DNA from: Chrysomallon squamiferum
Taxonomy: Eukaryota > Mollusca > Gastropoda > Neomphalida > Peltospiridae
Reading direction: 5' to 3'
NCBI GenBank assembly: GCA_012295275.1
Contig: CM022669.1
Location: forward strand, 14,446,172-14,510,171
DNA length: 64,000 nt
The notes under the pieces were generated by a model, which worked only from the letters and a program-made list of their open reading frames with translations, had not been told where the DNA came from and did no database searches. Of the stretch, positions 1,958 to 27,507 are shown one piece after another. The position numbers were made by a program, and so were the translations under genes. How positions within the stretch are numbered: position 1 is the stretch's first letter; the number at the start of each line of letters is the position of its first letter.

Positions 1958-2056
1958 CTCATCCCGGCCGTTTCATCACTAAGTTACTATACCACGGTGA
2001 TACCTTTGGTCTTTGTGCTGTCCATTTCGGCCGTCAAGGAAGCAGTTGATGACTTC
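1958..2056 (+). CDS. ATP8B: Flippase alternative exon A (M1-M2 loop and M2)
   Basis: This exon is 99 nt, phase 0-0. The acceptor is TTTGCTAG and the donor GTAAGT. It encodes 33 residues beginning [17 protein letters not shown] and ending KEAVDDF. In the family this stretch runs from the end of M1 through the exoplasmic M1-M2 turn and M2 to the acidic pair before the A domain. It joins in frame to the exon at 6373, which starts QRH. It is a homologous alternative to exon B 1.8 kb downstream, with about 20 of 33 residues identical. It carries no stop or frameshift and both splice sites look usable, so I see no sign that it is dead. Confidence 0.85.
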
Positions 2057-4520
2057 GTAAGTCAGCTGCCCTAAACAGAGGCAATCTCATCTAACAACAC
2101 CGGCGAGGCTTTGAGCTGTGTGTTCATATCGCTTCTGTGTTAATCGCAAAAACACAACCAAAAAAAAAAAATCTCTCAAGTTTGACAAATGTTTAAAATA
2201 TGCATGAAGAAGTAAAAGTAAAAACTGCATGAGTGTTTTTTTTTATTTTTTTTTATTACCATTATTATTACTGGTTTTTATTATTATTATTATTATTATT
2301 GTACATGTATGTACTAATTTCAAAGCATGATGGTTTGTCTTAAAGTGACTGTAATGTCCAAAGTTGTGTTTGAAAAATTGGTTATGATGTTTAAACAAGT
2401 ATGCACAGATATTTGTCAAACATTTAGAGATTTTAATAGCACTGTGCTTTCTGTGTTGCATATTTATTTTGTGTTGCAGTATTCATAGTCTGCTGTTATC
2501 AATATCTGCATATGCACATGGTTTATAATGGATTATGTATACCTACTAGAAATAATCTTAATAAGTTTTATTTATATATAACTGATGTTTAAGCATAAAT
2601 AGTACAAAATTAATGCATAATAATTAAATAATTAAATAAACCACTATAATTATTTGTAACCAGTAATTTTTTTTTATTTTTTTTTTTATTATTATTATTT
2701 AAATAAATATATCGCAGAAATATTTGATAATGGACCCAATAAATTCTGAAGCATTTTTATAAATATTATAAAATTTATGCTTATCCTGATAAAATTTAGC
2801 ATGAGAAATGAGAGTCAGGGTATTTTTTTTTTTCACAAGTGAATAATAAACAAATCCATAACCATGGAATATGCACAAGCCTGATAACTTCAGTAACATA
2901 ACTCTGACACACAGCTAAAGTTAATGATGTATTCAGCAAACCAGTTATCAACTGTTACATTGTCACGAAAGGTGAAAACAAAACAAAAATTTATCATCAT
3001 GATATGAAACAGTGATAGCCCAAGCTTTGAATGTCAGATTAATTTTAGCTTTGTTATGCTTTTGAACGATATTGCTGTGTCTTTTGCATCACTTTCTTTC
3101 AGGTAATATTGTGACACTCTGAAAGCCATTATTATTTATTTTTCTGTTCTGTTTTTCATTAACATTTGTGCTTTTATTTATTTAGTTTGACTTTTTCACA
3201 GTATTTAGCCTCTACGCATTATTTTTGCTTGATTTTTTAATTTTCTTTTAATCCACAGATTATGCATCTTTTTTTGCTTTGATCATTAATTTTACTTTAA
3301 TTATTATTTTAATTTAATTTTGTTTTTAATTATCCACCATCGCAAGTTAATTAGAAGCAGGTGAAATCTGACATAGCTTCAGTTTCACAATTTGCTATTA
3401 GTCAAAACGTCTACACCTAAAATTTAAATTAATTGGCTGAATCAAAAATTACATTTTTGAAAATAATACAAAAAAATATTTTTAGATTTTTAGATTTTAA
3501 AATTATTATTTTTAACTTAACTTAACTTACAATGGTGGATAATAAAAAAAAAAACCTATTATACACTGAACTTTACAAAAATGTATTTTTTAATTGTACT
3601 CAGTTTTATTAAACTAACAACAAGTTTATAGTTTTTCAGATTTTCAAAATTAACATTTTTATTACCAAATTTATTTTTCTTTCAGTTTTTCAATTTTTTT
3701 TTTTTTCTCTGTCTTTTTATTCCTTTCTACTTACTCACCCAACTGAGTAGTACAATAAAAAGTACATATTGTATGGTTGACTGTGTAATTAAATCTTCCG
3801 CATTGCCTCACTTTATGATTTCACCTGACGATAAATTTCCGTTTTGCTTGTTGCCGATGGTTACAGCTGATGCCCGTCATTTCTTCTTTGACTCCCCTTA
3901 CCACAGTGATTCCACTTGTTGCTGTGCTAACTGTAACGGCAATAAAGGATGCAGTCGATGATATTGTGAGTTACTTTTACTACAAGACAAATTTTTAAAT
4001 TTTGTGGGTATTTTTTGCGATTATTATTAAAAAAAATAAAATTTGGTAATTTTTCAATCGTGTTCAGTTAAGAAAAATGACGTAAGAGTCCAATTTTTAT
4101 TTATTTTTATTATTTATTTATTTATTTATTTATTATTGTTGTTGTTATTATTATTGTCATCATCATCTTCTATTTTCTCTTTTTATTACAATCAACAGTT
4201 GGTCTTGTGGTTTATTTTTTATTTTCTATTTATTTTTCTATTTTGACAGTAAGATTTTTAAGATTGATATCTTGAATATTTCAATTTTTATTTTTTCTAA
4301 AACAATTTTTTTATATATTTTTATAAATGAACTGGGTATGAGGGACTTGCTTAACAATTCAAACTATTTGGTAATTTTATTTTTTCATTAGTGATCCTTT
4401 GGGACTTTACTTATTTTTTATTGATTTTTATCTTGTTAATGATTGTTTATTAATTTTTTATGATTTGGGTATTTGGGATTAACAGTTATTGGAATTATGT
4501 AGTGCATTAATAACTTAAAC

Positions 4521-4587
<67 letters not shown>

Positions 4588-4721
4588 AATAATTATTAAT
4601 TTATTTTCATCTTTTTTTACTGGTTTCAGTTTTTATAATTTACTTGTTTATCAACTCATTTATTATTTTGTTCTTCCATTTTAATTATTATTTTAAAACT
4701 TTTACTTTTTATTTCTATTAT

Positions 4722-4756
<35 letters not shown>

Positions 4757-5001
4757 CCTCTTAATGACCTGGACTCATGAGGTTTAAAAAAAATTGGGGC
4801 ATTTTTTTTTTCTTTCTTTCTTTTTAACTTAAATTTGGAATTTTTATAAAAAATTTAAAAGGAAAATGATTTTAAAAAAACATTAAAAACTGCATCAGGA
4901 GACCTAATATCCATTTTCATCTTTTCTTGGTTATGGAATTTCCTGGTTTCTGCAACATCAACTGAAGGCAAATTACACAGTTTTCAGTTTTGTTTTTAAA
5001 A

Positions 5002-5041
<40 letters not shown>

Positions 5042-8000
5042 AAACTGATTTAAAACCTACTAACTTTTCTTCACTTTTTTTATACACTGGATTTTAGAGG
5101 GATTAAAGTTTGGTTTTATTTAAAATAAAATAAATATTAGATAATCTGCACCACTTTATATAGATGTATAGTTCTTTATATATATATATATTTATTTTTA
5201 AAACTATTTCATATACATGTTATTGTTTAAATTTTCATTATCTAATATTGACAATTAATATTTATTACATCTAGTATTTCTAATGGTAAGCATTTTATGT
5301 TGAGAAGTAAATATTTTTGGTTAAGTTGCAATTTCAGTATGTTTCAAATATTATATTATGCAATTTAGAAATAAATGAAAATAAATAAATATTTATTTTG
5401 CTATTTCAAATTTAAAGTCATATCACAATAATGAGTAAATGATAATTTCATATTTCTTGTTCATATAATTTTTCTTTCAGTATTTGAAATTATTAATTCA
5501 TGTTTTTATTTTGCATTTCAAGTTATTGTTTATCATTTTAAACTTTATGTGTATAATTGTTTTGATGTTGTCTACTTCATTTTTGCATTATTTACTTAAT
5601 TTAAATTACAAATATTTAAATCATTTTCTCTAAAATTTAATGAAGTCTTAGCATTAACCATTTTCATTTAGTTTGTGGCATTATAGATATAACAATTTTA
5701 GGTCAATGGCATTATAAATATTAAAATAATTTTAATGCAGCAGTAATTAATTTTACTTTTTTTTTATGAAATTGCCTCAAGTAAGAATTGTTAAAACAAG
5801 GTGTGAAAAATGTTTGTAAGTCCTCAGGTAGATTTTGATTGAGTGTGCGGCAGTGTTTAACACTGATTAGGACAGAAAGTGCCATTGAGATCCTAGTACA
5901 TCAATCAGGAAATAAGGGGTAGAGCCAGTAAACAGTAAATTTTAGTAGTTTCACAGTTTGTGACTAACAAATAACAGATTAAACCAAATTAAAGTATAAT
6001 TTTTACATTCAGACCATTGCATCATAATTATTCAAAATAAAAAAGTACGCACCTGCATGCACTCACACATTCACATTTTGAAGTGTAATCTTTAAATATA
6101 AAAAAGTATAAATAAAAATATAATATCCCACATCAAACAAACATAGCATTTCAGATTCAAAAATAGTGCAGTTTAAAAGGTAATTTTCTAAATTTAATAA
6201 CATCATCTACATACATTTTTCACACTTGTAATTTATATATTATTGAGATATTGGTTCTGTTAATCAGAAATATTTACAAAGTTAAACAGCCACTTTTATG
6301 TAATGAAAGATCGTGTAGCACTTTCTACTGTAAATTAATTTGACACCTTTTTTTTTCATTTCAATACAACAGCAAAGACACAGGAGTGATGATCTGGTTA
6401 ACAACCGGAAGTCTGACGTACTCAGAGACGGCAAACTGGTCTCAGAACGCTGGCACACTGTCATTGTCGGCGACATAATTCGGCTCAAAAACAATGATTT
6501 TATTGCAGTAAGTATCTGTTATTTTTAACTCAAAACAAAAATAAAAATCTTTCCTTTCTGAGTTTTATTGCAATAAATATTTGTTGTTTTTGATGACGTG
6601 AAAAAAAAAAAAAAAAAAAAAAAATTATTTTTTCTGGTTTATCTGGTTGAATGCTGCTGCCTTATAAATCATTCAGTAAAGATTCCTGGTTGATTTCTAT
6701 TTCACTCCTTGACTGTATAAATATGGATTAAAAATACATTAATTCTTAAATAAAATATCTTTCTGAATTACCCGGTTGAATGGTTAACCGTATAATTAAA
6801 TTATAGTTTGTAAATATGCTCAGAAAATGATTGAGCAATATGTTTTTTATTACTTTTTTTTTTTTTTAGTCATTGAAAACAGGTTACCTGTTGAGTTGTT
6901 TTTTCTTCTCAACTCTATAAATATTGATTAAAAATGCATTACTTAAATAAAATACCTTTGTCACTTATCCACTTGAATGGTGCCTTATAATTAGATTATA
7001 GTTTGAAAATGTGCTCAGAACATTATAAGTAATACTTTTTTTTTTCTTTCCAATCATTCAAAACATATTATTTGTTGATTTTTTTTTTCTCCTTGACTTT
7101 ATAAAATATGGATTAAAAATACATTACTTCTTAAATAAAATACCTTTTTTTTTTTTTTCTCCCTCCACATATTAATAAATTATTTATTGACTTCATTTGA
7201 CAGATGATGTGCATACTGAAAAATAAAATCAATACTTAATACATCAGACTGGTCTATGACAAATTTTACAAAATTGTTCTGCAGCACACAAACTCTGGTT
7301 AAAATAGTTGTGGTTGTTTTTATCAAACATTATTAACAAGTTGTTGTGCATGTTACTGAAGTGATGCATCTGTTGATAATTATATATAAATACACACTGA
7401 AATGATTAACTGACAAATCTTAAATTTGTACACCATAATCCTGACAGAACTGTTGTTTTTTTTAGTGTACAATGGTGATAATATGTTGTTATCAAAGATG
7501 TCATTTTGCTTAAAGAAAAACAGTTTTGTTGTTCAGTTATAAATAAACAAACTACAGGAAAGTAGTCTGTTGACAACCACTAAATCTCTCTGCATCAAAA
7601 CTCATCTGGATTATTGTTGTTTTTCTGCTTTCCAGCATTATTATTATTAAGTTGTTTGTTGCCTTCTTATGACTAACACAATTATTACTGAAGGGGTGTA
7701 TATTTTGACCATTGTAACTAAACATGTAGTAGATGAAACACACTAATCAAACTGATCTGTTGACAAATCATTTAAAACTGGCCTGTACTAAAAATCAGTC
7801 AAGGCTGTTGTTTTTGTTTTTCTCCACTTCCCAGCATTGTTAATGTATTCTTTGTTATCAGTTTTGCTCGACACTTCGCACATACTGTGTGTGTTCGTGT
7901 GTGTGTCTTACTAATCAGGCTGCTGCTTGACAAGGAGATGTGTCAGCCACGTTTAGCTGTGCAATCACAAAATGCAATCATTTGTTACTGCATCCTGTGA

Positions 8001-11353: not shown

Positions 11354-14300
11354 AATCCTTGAAATTAAATGTTATTAAGCAGGACAAGGAGACCTGTAAG
11401 AGCTCTCTTGATAGACCTGCCGCTGAAATCTGTGTGAGAGAATTGATTTCCTTCAGCTCAAAGGATCTCTGACAAATAAAAGCAGCACTGTTCTGCAACC
11501 TGCTTCTCGAACATCACAATGAAAATCAGAGAAACAACAAAAGCTGTGGCCATGTTTCCGCACAGTGTTATCAATGCAAGACCTTGTTTATTTCACTCCC
11601 AGGAGACCCCTGGGTTCATTAATCAATTAGGCAGACCAATAACATTATTTTATATCAAGTGAAGTCAGCTACATCAGAAGCAGCCAATGTGGAGATGTAT
11701 CCACTGTGCATGACAGTTTCCATCAAACGTTGTCATTGTCATTCCTGAGTCATGTTTGATGCTTTGATTTGTTACTCTGATTGATCTCTAAATGAAATTA
11801 CAATGACATTTAATTTAGATTATTGACGTAATCATAATAAATAAATTTGTGATCTCATTCAGGAATGAATAATATCTCATTATCTTAGTCTCTGTTGAGG
11901 TTTTTTTTTTTTTTTTTTTGGGTTAATCCTGCTAACCCATAAAGATCTCTCTATCCATTTGGCTGATCATATGTAGATTTAGCATTTGATTTAACTACTG
12001 AACTATTTCTTAATATCTGTCTGACTAAATCTTGAATGATGGAGCATAAAATGTTTAGATTTATATCTGTGTTCATTTGTCTGGAGTTCTGTAGATTTGG
12101 TCTTTCCTTAAAGATTGTCTTGTGTTTGACTTCCCAGTTTGTTCAGATAAAAGATAGCAGTGAAAAATTTAGATTTTCTTTAAATAAAAGTAGACTTAAT
12201 TTCTTCTTTAAATATTTACATCAAACTGCCTAATTCATCGATATAAAATATATCTCTGTGCCTTTGATTTTGAGGGTATTTTTAAGCATTTTGAATATAA
12301 TTCTTCTTCCTGATATAGTGTATCATATATGTATGATGGTTTTAAATTTATTTTTCCATTTGAAAACAAAAATATGTAGACCAACAGTTGAAGCCAAAAG
12401 TACAGGACCATCTGAATAATTTCAATTAAAATAAAAACAACAACCAAGAACTATTCCCTGGACAGTTCTTCTTATTCAACAACATGTACAAATATTACTT
12501 GATATGTGGGGTAAAAAACAAAACAAAAGGACTTGAGCATTAAAATTCTGGTTGTAGGAGGAAATAACTCAATAATACATTTTTTTTATTAGCCTTTGTG
12601 TAGCTAATAAAAAAAATGTATTATTGAGTTATTTCCTCTTACAACCAGTGTTTCTCAACTAACCATGGGAAATGTATAATATGTCAGGTTTTTTTTTTGT
12701 TGTTTTTTGTTTTTTTCTTCTTCTCACTTTGTATATTTGAATCTAAAAGGCCCTTTGCTCTTTTTATTAGAAAGAAAACAGAGCATCTTTCTTTTTCTTC
12801 TGAAGACAACAGAGTCAATAATATAAAAATTAAACAGACTATGTTCATTCATAACAAAAATAGAACCGTTGAAATGAAACCAGGGATTCTCACTTATATT
12901 CTGAAGAGACAGTTTGGTCAGGTCTCAGTATTACTTGGTGACAGTTCACAGTTTTTTTGTCACTTATCAAGTAAATTACCTTTGTTGTGTTTTTTAGGCA
13001 GATCTGTTTCTACTGTCCACCAGTGAACCTAACAGCTTGTGTTACATTGAAACAGCTGAACTGGATGGGTAAGTGATTTTTAACAGACTACCAGCATGTT
13101 AGATTATATATTACTTAATCTGTAAAATCTTAAAATGTTTTAGCAAGGCTGGAGTTAAATTGTAAACTTTGTTTTAATTTATTTTGTTTAAATTTAATTA
13201 TTAAGAAATGATTTCTATGTATAATAATAATAATAATAATAATAATTTATTTTAATTACATTTATTTCCTTGTATATGATATTTCTTTTCAATTTTCTTT
13301 TTTAGTTAATATTTTTTATATTTTTAATTGCATTGCCAGTGAAACCAACTTGAAAGTAAAACAAGCAATACCAGAAACAGCCAAAATGGGAGACAACCAT
13401 GAAGAAATGAGTTTGTTTAATGGTATACTCGCAATTTAATACCTTTCAGCTGTCTTCATTTTAAAAAAGTGGAAGTGATGATTTTAAAATTGTTTTGCAA
13501 AACAGAATCATTTAGTCTAAACATGATTCTGATTATAATGAAAACCTTGCATTCAGAAATTACTCTAAGAATCATTTCATTATTACCATGTTAAGAAATT
13601 CATAAATGTATATATTTAGTAATGTCAGATGTTTCTGAAAGAGTAATATTAAGTAATAACAAGTTACATTTTATGCTTTGGTGTAAAATATGTGACCTTA
13701 TGTATTCATGTGTCTGTGTGTGTGTGATCCTGGTATGTCTGTATGTTTTATATTTTACATGGATCAATCAATGCACATGTACAACTGAGTTGGTTTATGA
13801 ATTTGTGTGTTTGTATGCGTGAGAAACTATTATTAACGTTACATATTTTGTATTAACTGAACACTTAATTAAACGTAACGGTATTTCACATTACAGCTGA
13901 GATCGTCTGCGAAGCCCCCAACAACAGACTGAACAAGTTTGAAGGGAAAATGACGTGGCGAGGCAAGACATACGCAATCGACAACGACAAGATTCTTCTC
14001 CGTGGCTGCGTGCTGCGCAACACGCAGTGGTGTTACGGTCTCGTGATATTCGCCGGGCTCGACACCAAGCTGATGATGAACAGCGGGAAAACCACTTTCA
14101 AACGCACACACATTGATCGCCTTATGAACCTTCTGATCATTGGGGTTAGTCTTTTTTATATATATATATAACTTTATATATTTTTCTTTTTGTTTCAGAG
14201 TTAATCTTTTGTCGATAATGTGATCCATTTTGATTATGATTTTAATTTTTTTTTTTTTTTCCAGTTTATTAAATAACAGTGTTACAGTATTATAGAAAAT

Positions 14301-15113
14301 AAAGTATGTAATCGTTTTTTAAGATGCTAAAGAGATTTTTCATATATTTTTTTTTTTTTTTTTTTTTTTTTACATTTTATGGTAATTCAATAATAGTAAT
14401 AAACATCACTGGATTGTTAAAACTCATGTCAACTAGTATATGTTAATTTTCCGTTGATACACTTAACATCATACCATCATGTTAGCATCAGAAATGTTTT
14501 GATACAATTTATAAATACCACATTTAACATTTATTTTTTTTTTTCTTCACGATTTTCAGATTTTTCTCTTTCTTCTAAGTATGTGCCTAATCTGTACCAT
14601 AGCCTGTGGTATATGGGAGTCGTACACTGGCAGTAACTTTCAGATTTACCTTCCTTGGGAGGACTTTCTGAATCAGGACACAGAAAGAGGTTCAGCAACC
14701 ATTGCTGCGCTTGTGTTTCTGTCCTACATCATCATTCTGAACACTGTTGTGCCTATATCACTCTATGTGAGGTGAGCACATTCAAAGCTTTGCCACAATG
14801 TGATATTTCCACATTCTGTACTTTGTCATTATGTGAGGTTAGCCTTGTCGCATAGCACGAAGTGAAGATATAATTAGAGTTTTCTGATATTTTTCATTTT
14901 CTGGAATCTCGATAATTGGTCTGATATCTGTAAAAATAATTGTCATCTTAATTCTTCCTGAATTCTCTTTTGTCTCTCTTTCATTGTTTAAAATATTATT
15001 ATTATTATTATTATTAATTTATTTTTTGGGGTTTGTTCAGAACTATTTGCTGTCAACCACATGACAAATACAGTTAATTAAATATTTCCCATTTTAACAA
15101 ATTATTATTAATA

Positions 15114-15172
<59 letters not shown>

Positions 15173-17996
15173 CGTACTTTCAGGTTTCTATATTACAATA
15201 TTTATTTACTGTTTTCAGTGTTGAAATAATCCGTCTCGTGAACAGTTACTGGATCAACTGGGATGTCAAGATGTACTATGAGAAGAAAGACATGCCAGCC
15301 AAAGCTAGGACAACTACACTGAATGAAGAGCTTGGACAAATAGAGTACATCTTCTCTGACAAAACAGGAACACTGACTCAGGTAAAACACAATTACTACT
15401 GTACACACCTGTAGGTAGTTATGCAAACAGGTATCATTTATTAAAACACCTGTAATCAACATGTTGATAATAAAATGTAATGTCAGACACATAAAGACCT
15501 ATCAAGGTATATTTATTATGTTGAATGGAGATCTTTTAACATGAAATAGCGATTTAAATCTATAGATGGATTTCGTTTTTTAATTTAAATTTAATGCAGA
15601 TGTGGGTTTTTTGTGATTATTTAAACATAGCTGTGTTTGTTTATTTAAACATAATATATATTGTTTTGTGTTAGTTTACACATAATATAGCTAATTTATA
15701 AATTTATTTAAATATATAGCTGTAATAGGTTTGGTATTAATTTAACAAAGCATAGCTAATATTTCAGTAATTATTTAAACATAAATCTGGTTGGGGTGCT
15801 GTTGATTTATTATAACAATTAGTGTAGTTATATTGGTTTGTGTTTATACAAACAGAACTAAATTTCTTCTGTTTAAACATAATACATCAATTTGTAAATA
15901 TAATGCTTTTATTTGGGTATATTTATTTACAGTTTTTGTAACATCAGAAACACAGACATTCTGTATTTAAATTTCAGGATTTAAATTTCTCAGTGTCAGT
16001 GAAAATCTTTTCAGTGCGCATTTGAACTGTAGTAAAATCATGTTGCAAACAGGCATGAAATCTGTGTAACATGTGCTATTTACACACTTTATTGAATGCC
16101 TTGTTAGACAATATAGCATTTGAATATTAATCTCTATTGGTTATTTTGTCTTCCTTTGTAATTTACCATGAGTGTGTGTGGGGGTGGGAGTGGGAGTGGG
16201 AGTGGGGGTGTGTGTGGGTGTGGGTGTGTGTGTGGGTGGGTGTGTGTGGGTGTGTGGGTGGGTGTGTGTGTGTGTGAGATAATGAGTGAGATAGCAGGAA
16301 AGAGAATTTTTAGAAGTAAAATGAACAGTGGGTTTATGTAAGAAATGTGTTAATGTTTGTGTGTATAGCTGTGCATGTATATGCATGTATATGTATGTAT
16401 ATAATTTATATAATATGAAGATCTTGTTATCTTTGATCATAGTAAAGGAAGCCAAACTTGTCAACAGCTGCAGGCATAACTATCCATTAAACCTTTTAAA
16501 TAAGAAAGTAAAAAATTAAGATTTATTACCTTTGCCTTGACCTACTTTTTGTAACACATTTGTGGGTGCCAGATATCTGTGCTTTTTATGTGAAAAGATT
16601 AATATAATTTTAACAAAATATGAATGATCAGAAATATAAAAACAATAATAATAATTACAGCAGCAACAGCAGCAGTAGTAGTAGTAGTAGTAGTAGTAGC
16701 GTTACAGTAGTAGTAGTAGTAGTTTCTTAAGGCATTAGTAATAATATTTTTTTATTTATTATCACTACTACTATTACTTATTCCACTACTACAGCAACTA
16801 CTACTGATACTACTGCCACCACCTTGCATTAACAACCACTATTACTAGTTCTGATTAGTACCAATACTGCTATCTGTGCTTTTATCAGAATCTGTTAAGA
16901 TTTAATAACTGAACCAATACTTATTGTCATGTCACTTTTTTATAATAAATATAATATTAAAATTTATTTCAGAAATATCTTTTTATCCTTTTATTTTATT
17001 TTTTTTTTTTTTTAGCTTTTATTGACTATTACCTAGATCACTATAAATTGCTTCTCACAAATAAGAAAGCACTTTTCTTGTCATAGATAAAATACTTTGT
17101 GTAGTACTGTTGGAACTGGAAATAACAAAAACGGACTGAATTGTGTGTGTGTGTGTGTGTGTCTGTGTCTGTTATTATTAATTTTAATCCTCTGGCTTGC
17201 AGACATACACATTATAAAACAAATCTTATAAGAAATCATGATACTGGAACTTGCTCATGTTGTTTTCAGAATATAATGACATTCAACAAAGCATCTGTAG
17301 GTGGTAAAGCCTATGGGGATCCAGTTGATGAGGACGGCAATATTCTTGACTTCAGAGTGAGTAAACTTGTACTAAGACATTATTATTATCATTATTATTA
17401 TTATTATTATTATTATGACAATCTCTGTTAATGGATTAAGGATTGATTAATTTATATTTTATAAACTGTTTTCATTCTATTGTTGAATGGGGTTTTTTTT
17501 TTCATTATTTCTTTCTCTTGATGTATTTATTTGTTGTTTTTATTTATGCATTTTAATTTTTTTTTTTATATTTATGTATTCATTGTTATATTTTTTTTTT
17601 TTTTTTTGTAATAATCCTTTTATTACTAGATATACTGATTAATGTAATGTTTTAATGAAAAAAAATGTTTGTGGGTAGTAATTTTATATATTACAAATAA
17701 TATAAATATAACTTTTATTATTTATTTTTTCATATAGATAATAGAGTTGTAGTGATTTTGTTGTAAAGATTATGACAAAAATAGATGAATCTTAGACATA
17801 ATCAATAAGTCTTTTTAGAAGTGGATAATTGAATTTTATTTATCATGAAAAATAAAGAACCAGTGAAAAGAGATTTTTTTTTTTTAAGTACACAAACTTA
17901 CATTTTTGTTATATTTTAATTTTCAGTACTGATAATAAATTCAGAATTTAAAAAAATAATTTAAGTTTAATTTTTTATAAAGACTGAAAATGTAAA

Positions 17997-18087
<91 letters not shown>

Positions 18088-18746
18088 GTTTTGTCCATTA
18101 CTGGATACAAAATTACTACAGTAAAAAAAGAAATAATAATTATATAAATAAATAAAATTAAAATAATTTTCTTTTTTTTTTCTCTCTATATATAAAACTA
18201 TCAATTATCAATCTTGTCAACTTATTTATTATTTAACACATTATGAAAATGTGAGATCTCTTTTCTTTTCACAGTGCATGTCGAACATAGATTTTTCTGT
18301 CAACAATCCTTACAGTGAAGACACTTTTATGTTCTATGACCCCAGACTGCTTACTGAGGTGAATGCAGGAAACCCAGATGCAAAAAGGTTTTTTAAAATT
18401 CTTGCCCTCTGTCATACTGTTATGCCAGAGAAAAAAGAAAATGGTAAGTAATTAATTTATGTATGTTTTATATTAAAGTGTTTCATTTTTTGTGTGATAA
18501 AACTATATAAAATAATTTTTTAAATAAAGTTTATCATTGGTTAAATGATAATTGTAGTTCTAATTAAGTATAACTTTTCACAGGTATAATTTTCCTCTTT
18601 TTTATATTTTTTCTTTAATTTTTTATTAGAAACAAAGTAATATAGATATTTGTATCATATAATTAAGAAATATAGATTAAATTTAGTATTGAATATAGAT
18701 AGATAGATAGAGAGCATGATTTCCAGATAGATAATAGATAGACAGA

Positions 18747-18780
<34 letters not shown>

Positions 18781-20339
18781 TAGATAGATAGATAGATAGA
18801 TAAATCAACAAAGAAAGACACAACATATATAGACTAGTCAGTATTTAAACTTCAATATAAAAGATAAACATACCTTGAAAGAAGCTTTATTTAAACTGGC
18901 TTAAAAGAAACAGGTGAAATAATTTTTGGTGGATGTGGAAAATAAGTTTTTAATGTTTGTGTAAATAAAAATAAGTTTATAATGTTTGTTGTTGTTGTTT
19001 TCACAGGTAAGTTAGAGTACCAGGCTCAGTCACCTGATGAAGGGGCTCTTGTGTCAGCAGCTAGAAATTTCGGATTTGTTTTCAAGGTAACTTTTTTTTA
19101 TTTTAAAACTTTAAAAAATACATATTTACAACAACAACCAAAAAAATTAAATAATATATATATATATAAAAATGAAAAAATAAAAATAAAAAATAACATA
19201 AATAATAAAAATAAAAATTAAATATAGTTTCAAAATCGAGATAATAGTTCATCTTAAAAACAAAATAATGTTTTAAAATGTTTTAATAATTTATTGAATC
19301 ACCATTCTTAGAAATTACCTGTGTGTAAAACAGTTAATATTCACAACACTGAAAGCAACTTACATATATAATCTATAAATATCAGTTTACAAATTTTATA
19401 TTTTTATTATTTATAATTTTTTTTTAAATTTATTTATTGCTAATCCATTATTTTATTCATTTATATAAGAGAATTTTATTCTTTTAATATTGATTTATAC
19501 TTTTTCAATACATTTCTGGCTTAATTATTATATTTCGTTATTAATATTTAATTTCTTTATTAATGAAAAAGAATACTGATATATTTTTTCAGTAATAACA
19601 GAAATATGTTTCATTTTATTTATCCTTTTATTTACTTATTTGTTTTTTTTTGTTTTAAATTTAAATTTTTTTTTTTTTTTTTTTTTAATGTTGCTGTAAA
19701 TTAGTTTAAGTTACAATATTATTTTATTTCAGTCTCGAACTCCAGACACTATAACAATTGAAAGTAGAGGCAAAGAGAAAGTGTACGATGTTTTGTGCAT
19801 TCTTGATTTTAACAATGTCCGTAAGCGTATGTCTGTAAGTATTTTTTTATTTAATACATTACTTAGTTGTATAGGGATCATATTTCTAACTGATTTCAAA
19901 ACATAGATGGTTGGTTCATGAATGTATGAAGTCTTGTTCAGTAAAGTTTATTGAAATTTTCAATAAAATAAAAATACATAACAGTCGAAAGGATGAAATA
20001 TTAAATTTATTTTCTTGTTAATGGAACTTTAAAATAACAAAAAGATAATCACCAGACTTTTCTTATGTATTGTAGGGTGGTTGTTTTTTTTTTTTTTTTT
20101 TTAAATCTTTCATTTTTAAACAAAATTTTTAGTTATTATTATTATTTTTATATTTTTTATTTTATTATGTTATTAGGTTTTTTCTTTCTATATATAAAAA
20201 TGTTATTTTAATATTTTTTTAAATTATTTTTTATGTTATATTGTTGATATTTTGGTCAGAAATAGGTTTTTATTATTAATTTGTTTCCTATATCATTTTT
20301 TTTTTTTTTTTTTTTTTTTTTAATGTTGTTGTTGAATTT

Positions 20340-20437
<98 letters not shown>

Positions 20438-23400
20438 TTTTATAAATAATTAAATTTAAAATGAATCAACAGGTGATAGTGAGAAGGAAAAACAAAATCA
20501 GATTATACTGCAAGGGAGCCGACTCTGTTATCTTTGAACGTTTGGATCCCAGCTGTAATGAACTGGAAGAACTCACCATGCATCATTTGAATGTATGTGT
20601 GTCGGCTGTATTTTCTACATTTTGTAATTTTAGTGTTTTAGGTTTGATTTGTACTGTCACTAAACTGTAGCCGAATTCTTTATGTGCTTTAAAAATATTT
20701 ATAAGTTCAGTCTGTTTTGATAAAGAAAGAATTGCTAAAGGTTATTGAATAATTCATGAAAATAATTACACTATGAAGTATAATTTTGAAAAGTTATTAA
20801 ACTTTGAATTTTATTAATGTTCTTTACCATTATAACATAATTACCTGGATGTGTGTGTATATATATATATATATATATGTGCTGTTGAGTTTTTATTATA
20901 CAAATAAATAAGATCACTAATAAAATTAAAAGTTTAATAACTTTTCAAAATTATACTTTATAACGTAATTATTTTGATGAATTAGTCAATAACTTTTTGC
21001 AATTCTTTCTTATCAATATGGACTGAATTTATATATAAATATAATGTGTATGTCTACAAGCCAGAGGATTAAAATTAATAATAACACACACAGACACACA
21101 CACACACACAATTCAGTCTGTTTTGTTATTTCCAATTCCAACAGTACTGCACAAAGTATTTTATCTATGACAAGAAAAGTGCTTTCTTATTTGTGAGAAG
21201 CAATTTATAGTGATCTAGGTAATAGTCAATAAAAGCTAAAAAAAAAAAAAAAAAAAAAAAAAAATAAGGATAAAAAGATATTTCTGAAATAAATTTTAAT
21301 GTTATATTTATTATAAAAAAGTATATATATATTTGTGTGTGTGTGTGTGTGTGTCATAAATGTTTGATTTGTATCTACCATTACAACATAATTACCTGGA
21401 TGTGTATTTTTGATTTTTAGGAGTTCGCACAAGAAGGTCTCAGAACATTGTGCCTTGCCTATAAAGACATTAAACCAGCTGAATTTGAGACATGGAAAAT
21501 GAAACATCATCTAGCTAGGTTAGTGGTGGGGTTTTTGCAAAATACTGGCCTGACTGCATTTCTTAGCAAAACAGTTTCTTAATTTTATTCATCAATAGTC
21601 AAATTCTTAATTTTATTTATCAAATGTAAGAGTCTTAGTTTTTTTATTCATCAGTTGTCAAATTCTTAATTTTATTTATCAGAAAACAACAGCGGATTGT
21701 CATACTTATTTACCACAGTTAGTGATAGGGATCATTTAACATTAACAGTTTCCTGCATTTTTATTATTTCTCTGAATATCTGAGATTATATTTTTTCTAG
21801 CAAATAAATAAAAATATGTCGACAAGTTTTTTTTACATTTTTATTATTTTTATTATTTTCTATTATGCAGTCAGTGTTTTTCAATATTTTCATAAATATT
21901 CTGAAATATTTTTAGCATTACCAAGATAAACAACATAATAAATCTGTTACTTTCTAACACTGAATCAGTGGGGCTTCAGATTTGTTATGAATATTTTGAA
22001 ATATTTTTAGCATTAACCTGCATGTCCAACGATAACTCTAAACATTTTTTTATTAATTTCTGTAAATGCAGTAAACTGTCAGTGGATTTATAAGTATTTT
22101 TAGGAATATTTCTATGTGTTTTAGTATTACTCTGGAAAACCGTGATGATCAGTTGGATACTTTGTATGAAGAGATAGAGAAAAACCTTATTCTGGTTGGA
22201 GCCACTGCAATAGAGGACAGACTTCAAGATGGCGTTCCAGAAACTATTGCTAATCTGTCACTGGCTGGAATCAAGATTTGGGTGTTAACCGGTGATAAAC
22301 AAGGTTAATACTGCATTTTAAAGACACATCCAAAATCTACAATAGTATATTTAAAATGTGACTTTATCCTTAATTCATTGCTGTGTTCTTGAATTATATC
22401 CTGCTTGTAATTATTTTTAATATTATCCCATTCTTTAATTATCTTTATCATTATTTTACATCTTAGTTATCTTGAATAATAATGTACCTTGTGACCTTGT
22501 TTTTAGTTATTGCTATCTTTCTGAATCTAGTTATTTTGAATTTCATCTTCTCTGTATTTATCTTGACTATTATCTCACCTATATTATCTTGAATTTTAAC
22601 CTGTCTGTAACTGTAATCATCTTGAATTTCTTCCTATCTGTATTTATCTTGAATTTGTATTTTACCTGTTTTTATATATCGTGAATAGTGTTTATCTTAT
22701 ATGCATCTTAGTCATTTTTTAAATATTATAAAAGTTAAAAGTGACAAAGATGTAGTTTTTCCTTTTATCTTCTTATTTATAAGTGTGTGTGTGTCTGTTT
22801 GTGTGTGTGTGTGTGTGCATCAATTATTCCTGCTCATTGCTAACAGTAATGAAATTTTATTGTATAGGAACTGCTGGTTACTACTAATAATGAAATTTTA
22901 TTGAATAGGAACTGCTGGTTACTACTAACAATGAAATTTTATTGAATAGGAACTGCTGGTTACTTCTAATGATGAAATGTTATTGTATAGAAACTGCTGG
23001 TTACTTCTAATGATGAAATTGTATTGTATAGGAACTGCTGGTTACTACTAATAATGAAATTTTATTGAATAGGAACTGCTGGTTACTACTAATAATGAAA
23101 TGTTATTGTATAGAAACTGCTGGTTACTTCTAATGATGAAATGTTATTGTATAGAAACTGCTGGTTACTACTACTAATGATGAAATTGTGTTAATACAGA
23201 AACTGCTATCAACATCGGCTACTCCTGCCGACTGCTAACTGAGGACATTGAGGAGTTGTTTATCATTGATGCTGAAACAATGGAGGATGTTGAAGAACAG
23301 CTGGTGTCTGCTCTAAAACTAGTAGAGAACTACAAAAGCAGCAACTCAGACAGTAATGTTATGTGCAATGGTGACGCTCATTTTAATTCTGCGGACGGTG

Positions 23401-25510
23401 TTACTGTTAGCTGTGAAGAAAATCCGGAGTATGCCCTTGTTGTCAATGGTCATAGTCTGGTGAGTGTTGACAAATATTTTTATTTGTATAATAGTGTTCA
23501 TTTTTCTGGTTTTTAATAATTATTATTTTTTTTTTTTTTTTCTTTTTTTTTTTTTTTTTGTAACTCATTTGTTATTTTTACTTGTGTGATAGTGATAAGT
23601 TTTTGATTTATTTATTTTTCTATTTTCTATTTTTGTAGAACTCGTATGTTATTTTTTTATATATAATACTAAAGTGATTTTTTGGATTTTTTTATTATTA
23701 TTAATTTTTTTATTTGTATAATTGTATTATTTTTTGTTTCTGTTTATTTTTTCTTTATAACTCATTTCTTATTTTTATTTGAATAACTGTTATTATTTAT
23801 TTTTTATGTTTATATTTTCTTTGCAATTCTTTTATTTTTACTTGTATAATGGTGTTATTTTTATTTATTTCTGTTTATTTGTTTGATAACTCATTTGTTA
23901 TTTTCATTTCTATAATACTTTTTTATAAAATATTTAATGTTTGACCTTTTAATCAAAAAAATCATTTTATTAGTAAATCATATTTTCAAATGAATATAAG
24001 TAATTTTTAAAATCATAAATATTGAAATTTTATTCAATGCATTTTAAAATTCTAATGAATCTGTTGCATTTTTGAATGAAAGAAAAAAGTGACTTGAACA
24101 AATAATTAATATATATATATGTGTATTTTTTAACAGGCGTATGCTCTGAAGCCCGAATTGGAAGGTTTGCTTGTTCAGCTAGGGACAGTTTGCAGGTCTG
24201 TGATCTGTTGCCGGGTAACGCCACTGCAGAAGGCTCTTGTTGTCAACATCATCAAGAAACACAAGAAATCCATCACATTAGCAATAGGAGACGGTGCCAA
24301 TGATGTCAGCATGATTAAAGGTATATCACAGTTTTTTTTTTTTTTATTTATTATTATTTTTTTTTTCCTTGATGAAGTTTTCTCAGTGGAGTATCAATAA
24401 TTCTTAATTCTGATCACTTTACACCAATTTAGTCATGTATATAGATCTCTTGCACTGATAATTTTATATTTTCTCCACTGGCCTATTTCCCGTTCCTGCA
24501 TGAGCTGCAAGACTTTCAATATGCTTTCCTACCCATGGGAAAGCTACACATAAAATATTTCTTTTTTTTTACTGTAAATGAGAAATGAAGGTAGTTTCTA
24601 CTAAAGACATTATTTCATTCATTTTGATGAAACAGGCAACAGAGAAAATTTTATTCATTGGCTAATATTACACATTATAAATATCTGTTACTTCACAAAC
24701 TTGGAGCATGTATCTCGTATTATTTCCCACTTTAACTGCTGTGAAATTAAGATGCAAAATGGAATAAATCGGACAAATATGCAACTGATATATAACTACA
24801 GTAATTTTAATAAATGATTTTTTTTTTTTTTTTTTTACCAGTCATGCATATAACATGGGTAGTCATTTTTATAAATTAAAAATGTGTGTGTTTGTTATTT
24901 CAGCGGCGCACATTGGGGTGGGTATCAGTGGGCAGGAGGGTATGCAGGCTGTCCTGGCCAGCGACTACGCACTTGCACAGTTCCGATACCTCGAACGTCT
25001 TCTTCTTGTCCACGGCAGGTGGTCTTATTTCAGAATGTGCAAATTTTTGAGATACTTTTTCTACAAGAATTTCGCTTTTACCTTGTGCCATTTTTGGTAT
25101 GCCTTTTTCTGTGGATTTTCTGCCCAGGTAAGATGTATTTCTTTTTTAATTAAAAAAAAAAAATGACTGTGAATAAAATGAACATGTTGTATATGATTGT
25201 AGTGTGGCAGATTTTGTTTTTTGTTATTGTTATTGCTGCTGCTGCAGTAAGTATGGTTATTATTACGTGTTAATTAATTTATAATACAGAATAAATTATT
25301 GCTAGAAAGTGATGTAAGCCAAATGTGTTTATGTATTGTATTTTTTTTTTTTTTTCTTTTTTTTTTTTTTCTTATACAAGAAATTTTAAAGTTCATTATA
25401 TTTCTGTTGCAGCCTTTGTTTGATCCAGATTTGTTTTTTATTTTGTACAAAATTTAAATAAAAGTATATTTTATTATTATTAAGATTATTGATTATTATT
25501 ATTATTTATA

Positions 25511-25554
<44 letters not shown>

Positions 25555-26729
25555 TTCATCATTATTAAATTTAATGGTTTTTAAATTATTATTACTATTA
25601 TTAATTAAGTAAATAATAATAATGATAATAATAATTTTTATTAATATTCATATTCATATTATTATTATTATTATTAAACATAAAATATTTCTATCTGACA
25701 CTTGTCTGCTCCATCATAACATTTGTCAAGTCTTCATTATTATAGAGTTTTTTTTTAAATTTTAAATATGTAAATGCTAGTGTTAATTCTTTTTCAGACT
25801 TTGTATGATCCATTCTTCATTTCTTTGTACAATGTCTTCTACACATCATTACCTGTCCTTGTCCTAGGAATATTTGACCAGGTAACTGCATTGTTATATA
25901 TAATATCTCAACAAAAAACAAAATCATACAAATTTAAAAATAGAAAAGAAATAATGAATGTATAATTACGACATTTATTTTATTTTACATTTCATTTTTC
26001 TTTTTTTCTTTTTTTTTTTGAGGGGGAGCTATTTCTGTAAACAACATATTCTCTTTGTACAGCATAAACAACAGATATATTTCATTTATAACTTTCAATC
26101 TTCAAATTTAAAAAAAAAAAATGTTCTTGTTATTTATTTCAGGATGTAGACGAAGATCATTCTCTCCGATATCCAAAACTGTACACACCAGGCATGTACG
26201 ATGACCTGTTCAACAAGAAAAAGTTTCTCTTCAGTGTTGGTGAAGGTATCATAACCTCATTAATTTTATTTTTCATTCCTTACTGGACTTTCCTCAGTGG
26301 TGTAGGCTCATCTGGTATGGGAGAAGATGATCTGCAGTCGTTTGGTACCTACGTAGCAGCTATTCTTGTGGTCTCTGTCAATTTGAGGGTAAGAGATGTT
26401 CCTTAAAGCATTTCACCCAAAACATCCGTATTAAACTTGTTACTTTCATATTGTATTTTGCTGTTTCTGTATTAAGTTTATTATTGTCATGTTAAACTTA
26501 TTATCGTTATGTTGAGAGTATTGTTTTCATACTGCATTTCGTTATTTCTATATTATATTTTATTATTTCCATGTTAAGCTTATTTCCATATTGTTATTCT
26601 CATGATCTTTGAAAAGTGAATTTTGGTTTAAGATAAAAAAAAAATAGAATAAAAATTAACAAATAAACTTTTGAATGATGATAATTAAATTTGAAGTGTA
26701 ATAAGTGTATAGTAAAACCATATTATACA

Positions 26730-26766
<37 letters not shown>

Positions 26767-27507
26767 AGACATACACACACACCAGAACACAACAAAACTC
26801 AAAAAAAACCACCAAAATATACATATTCAAACAAAATTACCCCAAAAAACTGTTACAAATCAAGTCATTTATTTTTATTTATTTATTTATTTCTATTTTA
26901 TCTTTTAATTCCGTAACATTTTTTTTAAAACTTTTTAAAATCTTTTTAAACTTCCTGTCTTTCACAGTGTGCCCTCGACACCTCGTACTGGACAGGCTTC
27001 AACCACTTCGTGATATGGGGAAGTATAATCTACTACTTCTGCTTCATCCTTGCCTTCTACTCCAACGGGCTGAGCTACTCCTACGCAGGAGTTGCCTTCG
27101 CCGTCTTCTCCTCCAGCAGCTTCTGGCTCTGCCTCCTGTTGACCTGCACCATGCTCATCGTCCCCGTCGTCGCCTACAGGTTCTACAAGACCAACATCAC
27201 CGCCTCTCTGTCCGACAGGGTCCGGCTGAGGCAGAGGCTGAAGAAGCTGAAGTCGCGCTCGAAGGACGCTCACCTCAACCGGCAGTCGATGGTGAGGCAC
27301 AGCACTCGCTCGATGCGATCGGGCTACGCGTTTTCTCACCAAGAGGGCTTCGGCCAGCTCATCACGAGCGGACTGAACATGCGGCAGAGGCATGAAGAGC
27401 GAAGCAAGGAGCCCGTGAAGCTGACGAAAGTGATCAGACACAGTCACGAGGACGTTGTGTTTTCGCCGAATTCGCAGGAGAAGGCATTGTTTGTAGAGAA
27501 ATTGTGA
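1958..27507 (+). CDS. ATP8B: P4-ATPase phospholipid flippase, ATP8B type (5'-partial)
   Basis: This is a P4-ATPase, a membrane pump that moves phospholipids from the outer to the cytosolic leaflet and normally works with a CDC50 subunit. Exons, all GT-AG and phase-consistent: 1958-2056 or 3867-3965, 6373-6507, 12998-13068, 13340-13422, 13897-14144, 14560-14771, 15219-15381, 17270-17356, 18275-18443, 19007-19086, 19733-19834, 20473-20592, 21421-21518, 22125-22303, 23200-23459, 24137-24320, 24904-25127, 25798-25881, 26143-26388, 26968-27507 (TGA). With one alternative exon they give 1127 codons. Visible motifs in order are DGET, PISL, DKTGTLT, KGAD, TGDKQETA and [10 protein letters not shown]. 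The roughly 100 N-terminal residues expected for the family, including M1, are missing, so their exons lie left of the window. Wording such as [14 protein letters not shown] and CRVTPLQKA fits ATP8B rather than ATP8A, ATP9, ATP10 or ATP11; the exact paralogue (ATP8B1/2/4-like) cannot be settled here. Confidence 0.95.
2057..3866 (+). other. Intron between alternative exons A and B
   Basis: The first 100 nt or so after the exon A donor (about 2057-2155) are non-repetitive and fairly GC-rich for this locus, then the intron becomes AT-rich with ATT and poly-T runs. No coding signal was recognised. At 1.8 kb it is too long for simple steric blocking between the two exons' splice sites. Confidence 0.6.
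2201..2231 (+). promoter_or_regulatory. Two UGCAUG (RBFOX-type) motifs downstream of exon A
   Basis: TGCATG occurs at 2201-2206 and again at 2226-2231, 145-175 nt past the exon A donor. UGCAUG is the binding motif of RBFOX splicing factors, which in animals usually promote inclusion of an exon when bound in the intron just downstream. Two copies 25 nt apart at this position are suggestive. The motif also occurs elsewhere in the window (near 115 and 10240), so chance is not excluded. Confidence 0.4.
3867..3965 (+). CDS. ATP8B: Flippase alternative exon B (M1-M2 loop and M2)
   Basis: This exon is 99 nt, phase 0-0. The acceptor is GGTTACAG and the donor GTGAGT. It encodes [17 protein letters not shown] and, after the M2 core, ends KDAVDDI. 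Length, phase and alignment are the same as in exon A, with differences concentrated in the M1-M2 turn (SYYTT against TPLTT) and as conservative changes in M2. Including both exons would give two consecutive M2 helices, and including neither would delete M2; both outcomes keep the frame but should wreck the topology. Mutually exclusive use is therefore the sensible reading, though the sequence alone cannot prove it. Confidence 0.85.
3966..6372 (+). other. Intron after exon B
   Basis: AT-rich, with poly-T blocks at 4526-4586 and about 4722-4756 and an (AT)n run near 5007-5035. A short more complex stretch lies at about 5810-5935. I searched by eye for a third copy of the alternative exon and found none. 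Confidence 0.6.
4526..4586 (+). repeat. 61-nt poly-T tract
   Basis: An uninterrupted run of 61 T inside a flippase intron. Its length in the assembly is probably unreliable. Confidence 0.9.
6373..14144 (+). CDS. ATP8B: Flippase exons coding the actuator (A) domain
   Basis: Four exons (6373-6507, 12998-13068, 13340-13422, 13897-14144) code the cytosolic actuator domain between M2 and M3. The first reads [17 protein letters not shown], then the [14 protein letters not shown] strand. The second continues [11 protein letters not shown] and ends inside the DGET dephosphorylation loop, so DG and ET lie on either side of the 13068/13340 junction, with the glycine codon split 2+1. The long fourth exon holds [21 protein letters not shown] and ends LLIIG at the start of M3. 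It is clearly less AT-rich than its surroundings. The 6.5-kb intron 6508-12997 is the largest complete one in the gene. Confidence 0.93.
6634..7148 (+). repeat. Diverged tandem repeat, period about 195 bp
   Basis: Each unit has a core like GGTTGAATGGT, then TATAATTAAATTATAGTTTG, a CTCAGAA stretch, a T-run, and TATAAATATGGATTAAAAAT followed by CTTAAATAAAATACCTTT. One partial copy (about 6634-6765) and two fuller ones (about 6766-6961 and 6962-7148) can be aligned by eye. Confidence 0.65.
8341..8490 (+). repeat. Tandem repeat of about 65 bp, three copies
   Basis: The phrase TCAGGACAGGACTATTAACC or a close variant starts near 8341, 8404 and 8471. The first two copies are each followed by GTTCTTA and a stretch ending CTTTTTAAATATTT. 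Confidence 0.7.
11380..11760 (+). other. Non-repetitive intronic segment of unusual composition
   Basis: About 380 bp with balanced base composition and almost no homopolymers, in the middle of a very AT-rich intron. It includes the inverted repeat CCCAGG-AGACC-CCTGGG near 11598 and a TAAT-containing stretch. I see no long reading frame or splice-bounded exon. It could be a conserved enhancer or an old inserted fragment. Confidence 0.4.
12548..12648. repeat. Near-perfect palindrome, 46-bp arms and 9-bp loop
   Basis: Arm 12548-12593 starts CTGGTTGTAGG and ends TTATTAGC. Arm 12603-12648 is its reverse complement with one mismatch. The 9-nt loop lies at 12594-12602. In the flippase pre-mRNA it would fold into a long hairpin. 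It resembles a small foldback element, and no flanking target duplication was identified. Confidence 0.9.
14560..15381 (+). CDS. ATP8B: Flippase exons coding M3-M4 and the phosphorylation site
   Basis: Exon 14560-14771 encodes M3 ([19 protein letters not shown]), an exoplasmic loop with LPWEDF, and M4 with the P4-type PISL motif (VVPISLYV). The serine codon after it is split AG/T across the intron. Exon 15219-15381 encodes [15 protein letters not shown] and ends in [11 protein letters not shown], whose aspartate is the residue phosphorylated in the transport cycle. Donors are GTGAGC and GTAAAA. A (TC)26 array ends about 50 nt before the 15219 acceptor. Confidence 0.94.
15117..15168 (+). repeat. 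(TC)26 microsatellite
   Basis: An uninterrupted TC dinucleotide array ending 50 nt before the exon acceptor at 15219. It may extend the polypyrimidine context of that intron end. Its complement occurs as a long AG array at about 18000-18083 in the same transcript. Confidence 0.95.
16180..16276 (+). repeat. G-rich GT satellite with G-quadruplex motif
   Basis: At 16180-16208 five runs of three or more G are separated by 1-3 nt (pattern G5-T-G3-AGT-G3-AGT-G3-AGT-G5). More G3 runs in GTGTGGG units follow to about 16265. The G-rich strand is the sense strand of the flippase gene, so the motif would be present in the pre-mRNA. Confidence 0.85.
16934..17215 (+). repeat. Long inverted repeat, left arm
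   Basis: About 282 bp whose reverse complement is found at 21041-21322. Shared landmarks are the stretch around CTCACAAATAAGAAAGCAC, the paired text ATAAAATACTTTGTG, a TG/CA microsatellite and AGGATAAAAAG. Outside the microsatellite and poly-T/A parts, mismatches are few. The arm ends about 55 nt before the exon at 17270. Confidence 0.9.
17270..23459 (+). CDS. ATP8B: Flippase exons coding the nucleotide-binding domain
   Basis: Exons 17270-17356, 18275-18443, 19007-19086, 19733-19834, 20473-20592, 21421-21518, 22125-22303 and 23200-23459 code the N domain and the return into the P domain. Landmarks are [99 protein letters not shown] and [11 protein letters not shown]. The last exon opens [13 protein letters not shown]. 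It carries a Ser/Asn-rich stretch ([17 protein letters not shown]) in a region that varies in length across the family. All junction phases agree. Confidence 0.93.
18000..18083 (+). repeat. (AG)n microsatellite, about 83 bp
   Basis: An uninterrupted AG array in the intron before the exon at 18275. It is complementary to the TC array at 15117-15168. Confidence 0.95.
18695..18803 (+). repeat. GATA/GACA microsatellite
   Basis: Interrupted runs of GATA with a short GACA block, in the intron 18444-19006. Confidence 0.9.
20696..21036. repeat. Imperfect palindrome, arms about 120 bp
   Basis: Arm 20696-20818 (with TAAGTTCAGTCTGTTTTGAT and AAAGTTATTAAACTT) pairs with 20917-21036 (with AGTTTAATAACTTTT and ATGGACTGAATTTAT). 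The arms are visibly diverged and the spacer is about 98 bp, including an (AT)n run. It abuts the right arm of the long inverted repeat, so this intron is a patchwork of inverted duplications. Confidence 0.8.
21041..21322 (-). repeat. Long inverted repeat, right arm
   Basis: Reverse complement of 16934-17215, lying about 100 nt before the exon at 21421. A 30-nt phrase (TACCATTATAACATAATTAC, continuing CTGGATGTGT) occurs near 20827 and again near 21376, either side of the arm. This suggests the segment arrived by a duplication or insertion that copied the flank. Confidence 0.9.
22861..23191 (+). repeat. 41-bp minisatellite copying a 3' splice site
   Basis: Eight units start at 22861, 22902, 22943, 22984, 23025, 23066, 23107 and 23148 (the last is 44 bp), preceded by a partial unit. 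Each has TATAG or AATAG followed by GAACTGCTGGTTACT or AAACTGCTGGTTACT. The true exon at 23200 begins after TACAG with AAACTGCTATCAAC. The units therefore look like tandem copies of the exon's own acceptor region. Splicing at any of them would put a TAA in frame within a few codons. Confidence 0.92.
24137..27507 (+). CDS. ATP8B: Flippase exons coding the P-domain hinge, M5-M10 and C tail
   Basis: Exon 24137-24320 has [20 protein letters not shown] and the hinge [11 protein letters not shown]. Exon 24904-25127 has [20 protein letters not shown], then [20 protein letters not shown] (M5) and the start of M6. Exons 25798-25881, 26143-26388 and 26968-27507 complete the membrane domain, including [19 protein letters not shown] and [13 protein letters not shown]. 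The protein ends in a basic, Ser/Arg-rich cytosolic tail of roughly 100 residues finishing [16 protein letters not shown]. In several P4-ATPases this tail is regulatory. The terminal exon is the most GC-rich coding stretch in the window. Confidence 0.94.

Follow-up and report, generated by a model that had tools for sequence, protein, structure and literature searches.

A probable pair of alternative exons for the M1-M2 loop and M2 in a predicted ATP8B-class lipid flippase gene of Chrysomallon squamiferum, with counterparts predicted in other molluscs

Can a single mollusc gene make two lipid flippases that differ in part of the path by which the lipid enters? The question is raised by a stretch of 64,000 nucleotides from Chrysomallon squamiferum (hereinafter, the window; 26.5% G+C), in which an earlier note had pointed to two neighbouring exons, here named A and B, as alternative versions of the M1-M2 loop and M2 of an ATP8B-class pump. 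The analysis of the window and of homologous proteins showed the pair to be genuine and functional in appearance, with a broader occurrence than the note had recognized.

Exons A and B are both 99 nt long, of phase 0-0 and free of stops, as the note had read them, and have GT-AG splice sites (ctttgctag/CTC...TTC/gtaagt for A and ggttacag/CTG...ATT/gtgagt for B). Their products share exactly 20 of 33 residues, the approximate figure given before, and differ at the other 13; at the nucleotide level, 63 of 99 bases are identical, that is, 22, 28, and 13 (each out of 33) at codon positions 1, 2, and 3, respectively. An ungapped six-frame scan of the entire window gave A and B a mutual score of 102, versus 41 and 39 for the next-best places matching A and B, respectively; thus, a chance likeness of the two exons is excluded. 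The same scan yielded no third copy of the cassette (the 33-residue segment encoded by either exon) in the 64 kb. A and B are therefore homologous neighbouring exons of compatible length and phase, which is one of the features expected of mutually exclusive tandem exons. The Nei-Gojobori comparison of the two gave pS 0.70, pN 0.24, dN 0.29, and a dS of about 1.96, which is near saturation; both copies look selected, since the resulting dN/dS is about 0.15. The same codon is used at 6 of the 20 identical residues, and the G+C fraction is 0.485 in exon A and 0.444 in exon B, with 0.26 and 0.21 in the introns that follow them.

As for the gene harboring the pair, the joined gene model bore out that either exon joins in frame to the exon starting at 6373; from there, 19 shared exons encode 1094 residues with no internal stop, all 18 introns among them are GT-AG, and each exon was matched only once in the window by tblastn with a protein from Gigantopelta aegis (P0003). 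Most of an ATP8B-class lipid flippase gene thus lies on the forward strand (Table 1); a tblastn search of the window with Gigantopelta residues 1-69 returned no match at E <= 1 for the upstream M1 exon.

Table 1. Exons of the predicted flippase gene in the window.
Feature	Position	Strand	Remarks
Alternative exon A (M1-M2 loop + M2)	1958..2056	+	99 nt, phase 0-0; 9 further gastropod records carry an A-type cassette
Alternative exon B (M1-M2 loop + M2)	3867..3965	+	99 nt, phase 0-0; all 33 residues as in Gigantopelta aegis isoform X1
First shared exon downstream of the cassette, A-domain start	6373..6507	+	phase 0, AG/GTAAGT; tblastn with P0003
Shared exon, A domain	12998..13068	+	gene model; 100% to Gigantopelta P0003 residues 148-171
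Shared exon completing the DGETNLK motif	13340..13422	+	gene model + tblastn
Shared exon, A domain to M3 start	13897..14144	+	gene model + tblastn
Shared exon, M3-M4 with PISL motif	14560..14771	+	gene model + tblastn
Shared exon with DKTGT phosphorylation site	15219..15381	+	gene model + tblastn
Shared exon	17270..17356	+	gene model + tblastn
Shared exon	18275..18443	+	gene model + tblastn
Shared exon	19007..19086	+	gene model + tblastn
Shared exon	19733..19834	+	gene model + tblastn
Shared exon (CKGADSV)	20473..20592	+	gene model + tblastn
Shared exon	21421..21518	+	gene model + tblastn
Shared exon	22125..22303	+	gene model + tblastn
Shared exon	23200..23459	+	gene model + tblastn
Shared exon with GDGANDV	24137..24320	+	gene model + tblastn
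Shared exon	24904..25127	+	gene model + tblastn
Shared exon	25798..25881	+	gene model + tblastn
Shared exon	26143..26388	+	gene model + tblastn
Last coding exon, C-terminal tail	26968..27507	+	stop 27505-27507; gene model + tblastn

The joined frame matches PhoLip_ATPase_C (PF16212) at 290 bits and includes the DKTGT, DGET, and GDGANDV motifs, as well as the P(I/V)S(L/M) motif of M4 (VPISLYVS); the general E1-E2_ATPase model scores 22.9, under its cut-off of 28.1. Among solved structures, the Gigantopelta ortholog matches human ATP8B1 best (1247 bits, compared to 921 for ATP8A1, 851 for Drs2, and 683 for ATP11C). These data support the assignment of the gene to the ATP8B class of P4-ATPases, already proposed in the note, with lipid flipping, together with a CDC50 subunit, as its predicted activity.

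A stretch of the intron preceding exon 25798-25881 (25413-25450, after an AG) resembles the start of that exon, with 28 of 37 aligned columns identical and a 3-nt gap, and encodes 14 residues followed by a stop. It is possibly a decayed duplicated exon, an identification that is not secure: the score was equalled by 2 of 1000 intron shuffles, and a reverse-strand control over the whole gene gave similar scores.

We put at about three chances in four the reading according to which the M1-M2 loop/M2 exon was duplicated in tandem within one intact-looking ATP8B-class gene, whose splicing gives two flippases. The upstream M1 exon would be joined to either A or B and then to 6373, and the two enzymes would be distinguished by 13 of the 33 cassette residues, in the lipid entry gate. 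One mRNA would normally carry only A or only B, since with both included a second M2 would be inserted and the membrane topology disturbed.

To compare the cassette with those of other organisms, 245 proteins were considered, namely the two window peptides and 243 homologs (the best 120 of 7986, the best 120 of 1026, and 34 of 34 matches). Among the matches listed, the closest protein is "ATPase ID-like isoform X1" of Gigantopelta aegis. Over the 1092 columns of the shared part its identity is 84%, yet its B-type cassette equals window B at 33 of 33 residues, which supports the reading above. The most informative case is that of Littorina saxatilis, whose isoforms X1 and X2, both of 1256 residues, are identical except for 15 positions, all within residues 71-102 and so inside the cassette (70-102); the A type is carried by X2 and the B type by X1. 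At the annotation level, these isoforms show alternative use of the cassettes, which is hence likely. Regarding the earlier statement that one gene makes two pumps, alternative use has thus gained ground from the annotated Littorina isoforms, while exclusive use and a change in lipid choice are what we infer. In Pomacea canaliculata isoform X3 (P0013), about 13 extra residues (TRCHESTSSGILQ) lie after residue 104, between an A-type cassette and the next shared exon, and perhaps represent another small alternative exon at this junction.

The location of the cassette was checked on solved structures. The ungapped alignment of P0003 with human ATP8B1 (chain 8ox7_A, 1251 residues) places cassette positions 1-33 at residues 132-164; the cassette starts right after the M1 glutamine, which falls on residue 131, and its position 13 falls on Thr144, in agreement with the claim that it comprises the M1-M2 loop and M2. 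In the alignment with ATP11C (chain 6lkn_A), positions 12, 13, and 31 correspond to residues 90, 91, and 109. According to the accessible text of PMC12723151, the PS headgroup is hydrogen-bonded in ATP11C by Gln79, Thr90, and Ser91, the last being equivalent to ATP8B1 Thr144, whose rotamer differs between the PS- and PC-occluded forms; the substitution Q79E (Q84E in ATP11A) gains PC use, and Glu114 of ATP11A, an exit-site position, is also linked to PC flipping. From the Q79/Q84 offset, we take position 31 to be the probable equivalent of this E114. The cassette therefore holds two headgroup contacts, and window A and window B do not differ at Thr143, at Thr144, or at position 31 with its acidic residue; any effect on lipid choice would thus come from the neighbouring residues. 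The swap might change how the gate closes around the headgroup, with the Thr144-equivalent contact kept and its neighbours changed, and thereby which lipids are taken or how fast, a consequence to which we would give about even odds.

The literature on the gate, as far as the accessible text of each paper goes, points in more than one direction. The choline cavity is described as wide and formed by TM1 and TM2; the occlusion-site side chains are virtually identical with PC, PS, and PI, and wide specificity is traced to W390, which keeps TM1-2 away from TM3-4 (PMC10657443). Since those side chains do not change with the lipid and W390 falls outside the cassette, the reading in terms of lipid choice is weakened. 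The exoplasmic part of TM1-2 is part of the entry gate in one model; in another its role is only indirect, and Drs2 simulations place selection deeper (PMC11460456).

Which residues distinguish the two types was examined on a set of 48 cassettes from 42 chosen homologs (out of 243), the window, and the Pinctada and Argonauta proteins carrying both cassettes in tandem. Haliotis rubra P0006 and Biomphalaria P0044 (their genera being already represented), the Littorina tandem model (with the same cassettes as X2 and X1), Bulinus P0055 (which has no cassette), and unnamed records were left out; the Nucella cassette (32 residues, truncated at its start) was then dropped, leaving 47 rows. The 10 A and 10 B gastropod cassettes, window included, are separated at positions 2 (I in A; M/L/V in B), 4 (A/P; V), 9 (S/E/N/A; T), 23 (I; V/L), and 28 (E; D). 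Position 19 also separates them (F; A/V), though not absolutely, as Nucella is B-like at the five positions above and has F at 19. The choice of these positions is partly circular, because the A and B labels were given by resemblance, and the Littorina isoforms provide an independent anchor.

The contrast between SYYTT and TPLTT at the turn, which the note had singled out, turned out not to be general: the turn does not separate the two sets, whereas positions 2, 4, 9, 23, and 28 do. The other nine gastropod A cassettes read NPVAT, NPIAT, EPVAT, EPTAT, or APIAT, with P at position 10 as in B. All 47 cassettes have Thr at position 13; at position 12, 9 of the 10 gastropod A cassettes have Ala, and window A has Thr. 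Outside the gastropods, the YTT-like cassettes of bivalves resemble both window cassettes to nearly the same degree (20.4 of 33 for A and 20.0 for B), and the TPLTT-like ones are nearer window B (24.7) than A (22.2), so that the A/B correspondence between gastropods and bivalves appears weaker than that within gastropods.

These residues bear on the strongest alternative, to which we give somewhat less than an even chance, namely that the cassettes, each employed in other tissues or stages, serve regulation, folding, CDC50 pairing, or trafficking and not the choice of lipid. It is consistent with the position of several of the consistent A/B differences (19, 23, and 28) in the body and at the cytosolic end of M2, with the suggestion that M2 may relay an allosteric signal to the A domain (accessible text of PMC10657443 and PMC11460456), and with the identity of the known headgroup-touching residues in the window. 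On the other hand, position 12 corresponds to ATP11C Thr90, a hydrogen-bond donor to the headgroup, and its replacement by Ala in most gastropod A cassettes, window A excepted, points to headgroup handling in those species.

A further possibility is that only one exon is spliced in and the other is an unused relic. A splice-site matrix was built from the other introns of the gene, these being scored by leave-one-out. Acceptors score 3.6 (A) and 6.2 (B), against a constitutive mean of 5.9 (sd 4.9, n = 19), and donors 3.8 (A) and 6.4 (B), against 7.7 (sd 2.2, n = 18). The donor of exon A is thus weak, below all but one of the 18 constitutive donors, and the other sites of the pair are ordinary. 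The lower scores of exon A are what a relic might show; however, the mostly synonymous divergence, the A-type cassettes recorded in nine other gastropod proteins, and the existence of a Littorina isoform of each type make this explanation very improbable.

Even less probable is the routine inclusion of both exons, giving a protein with a duplicated loop and M2. A pattern search over the first 700 residues of the 245 proteins found three with both cassettes in tandem, from Littorina (P0012), Pinctada imbricata (P0022), and Argonauta hians (P0043), which at face value argue against exclusive use. These are automatic models, the Argonauta record being named "isoform X1" by NCBI and the other two only "hypothetical protein", and we take them for model errors, although no other records bear directly on co-inclusion; tandem pairs are found in 3 of the 245 proteins searched, and an extra membrane span would displace the later domains. 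The TPLTT-like cassette comes second in all three, the same order as in the window. The pair is accordingly predicted, from these models, in a gastropod, a bivalve, and a cephalopod, and so would not be private to the Chrysomallon gene.

The least probable explanation is that the assembly merged A and B from two paralogous genes: in Babylonia, A- and B-type proteins, 78% identical, lie on contigs of different length, and there the two types may be divided between paralogs, but the tandem order in single predicted proteins of three genera, the identity of the Littorina isoforms outside the cassette, and the single occurrence of each shared exon in the window all contradict a merger.

The distribution of the types was also compared with a tree computed on the shared portion of the protein (32 rows, built by a quick method with no shuffled control; bivalve YTT-like cassettes labelled A and TPLTT-like ones B). 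The recorded type requires 10 changes among 29 labelled proteins, one of which is forced by the two identical Littorina rows; for instance, Biomphalaria, of type A, clusters with the B-type Physella and Lymnaea, and Ostrea, with PWYTT, clusters with Saccostrea and Crassostrea, which have TPLTT. Such a number would be expected if only one isoform out of two enters the databases. Most simply, both cassettes are present in these genomes and one of them is recorded; cassette loss in some lines would look the same.

Concerning the age of the duplication, the A cassette was found in the lineage near Gigantopelta, in the caenogastropods Littorina, Pomacea, and Babylonia, and in heterobranchs (Aplysia, Biomphalaria, and others). 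Since it is common to these lineages, the pair most likely predates their split, as judged from the protein records. Dating from a cassette tree was tried and set aside, 33 columns being too few: only 9 of 41 inner branches of the 47-row tree are well supported; AU tests reject neither an all-gastropod clade (p 0.29) nor an all-bivalve clade (p 0.28); and even a private origin in the lineage of the window is not rejected (p 0.077). Gastropod A cassettes form one side of a branch in the 47-row tree (support 29/90) and are not one clade in a 36-row mollusc tree, where forcing them into one clade has a cost of 3.1 log units (p 0.39); in the latter tree, a branch with support of only 68/65 sets apart the TPLTT-like cassettes of gastropods, bivalves, and cephalopods. 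That the order is the same in three classes speaks for an older single origin, although it is not proof of it.

A broader scenario may also be depicted, which we consider rather unlikely. The pair would be an ancient splice switch for lipid choice in mollusc ATP8B, pre-dating the split of gastropods, bivalves, and cephalopods and possibly that of the main bilaterian lines; a (W/Y)YTT-like form would then have become fixed in vertebrates and a TPxTT-like one in arthropods. The pump with cassette A would have another lipid preference, having lost the headgroup-bonding Thr at position 12 in most of the gastropods compared.

Returning to the tandem duplication with alternative splicing, how could the choice between A and B be controlled? 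Because the exon length, 99 nt, is divisible by three, the frame is kept whether both exons are included or skipped, and decay triggered by a frame shift cannot enforce the choice; the intron between A and B, of 1810 nt, is too long for steric exclusion, and there is no GT-AG incompatibility between the two exons. As for RNA pairing, nothing convincing was found among 25 of the 222 inverted repeats of at least 15 nt in the region 1700-6400, mostly AT-rich. The most distinctive hairpin listed, a 33-nt inverted repeat (3318-3350 with 3522-3554, 88%), is located within the intron separating A and B and does not on its own account for any choice. The remaining option is a putative regulation by splicing factors.

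To our knowledge, no alternative M1-M2 cassette is known in human ATP8B1, ATP8B2, or ATP8B4, which belong to the same protein class and to the first of which the B cassette aligns gap-free. A search of the open-access literature (titles and starts of abstracts, with subscription papers mostly outside it) retrieved, among the records listed, no description of a flippase whose lipid path is switched by splicing; within this scope, the statement of the earlier note that none was known for ATP8B holds. The nearest precedent, by analogy and according to the accessible text of PMC7434440, would be coq-2, whose mutually exclusive exons 6a and 6e occur in helminths, annelids, and molluscs. Also there, tandem homologous exons are involved, the swap remodels the substrate site of a membrane enzyme and switches its substrate, and one form resembles the general animal sequence; coq-2 is a different gene, its splicing was checked with RNA data, and taking out either exon altered the product in C. 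elegans, whereas the A/B switch is a prediction from sequence. The same text cites mrp-1 (Yue et al. 2017), a membrane transporter gene with mutually exclusive exons of equal length, likewise in helminths, annelids, and molluscs; unlike A and B, these concern mitochondrial vitamin B12 uptake and are said to have arisen independently in each lineage. The ATP11A Q84E and ATP11C Q79E changes resemble the present case in that one M1-gate residue, a Gln aligning just before the cassette, changes lipid choice, and differ from it in being point mutations rather than a natural splice choice (accessible text of PMC12723151). Lipid choice by P4-ATPases has so far been argued from point mutants and structures; a natural enzyme pair differing only in 13 to 15 gate residues, in several molluscs, would be a ready-made experiment on it.

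Other features lie in the window outside the flippase gene. On the reverse strand, ORF pieces at 60301-60648 and 62403-62924 match YjeF_N (PF03853) and the FDF domain (PF09532), presumably as in an EDC3-like mRNA-decapping gene. On the forward strand, an ORF piece at 46402-46758 matches the RNase_T exonuclease family (PF00929) and is, we assume, part of a REXO2-type oligoribonuclease; its supposed start, at 44377-44715, has no Pfam match. Lastly, two ORFs at 36553-36810 (reverse strand) and 45553-45750 (forward strand) encode similar peptides, which suggests a dispersed repeat.
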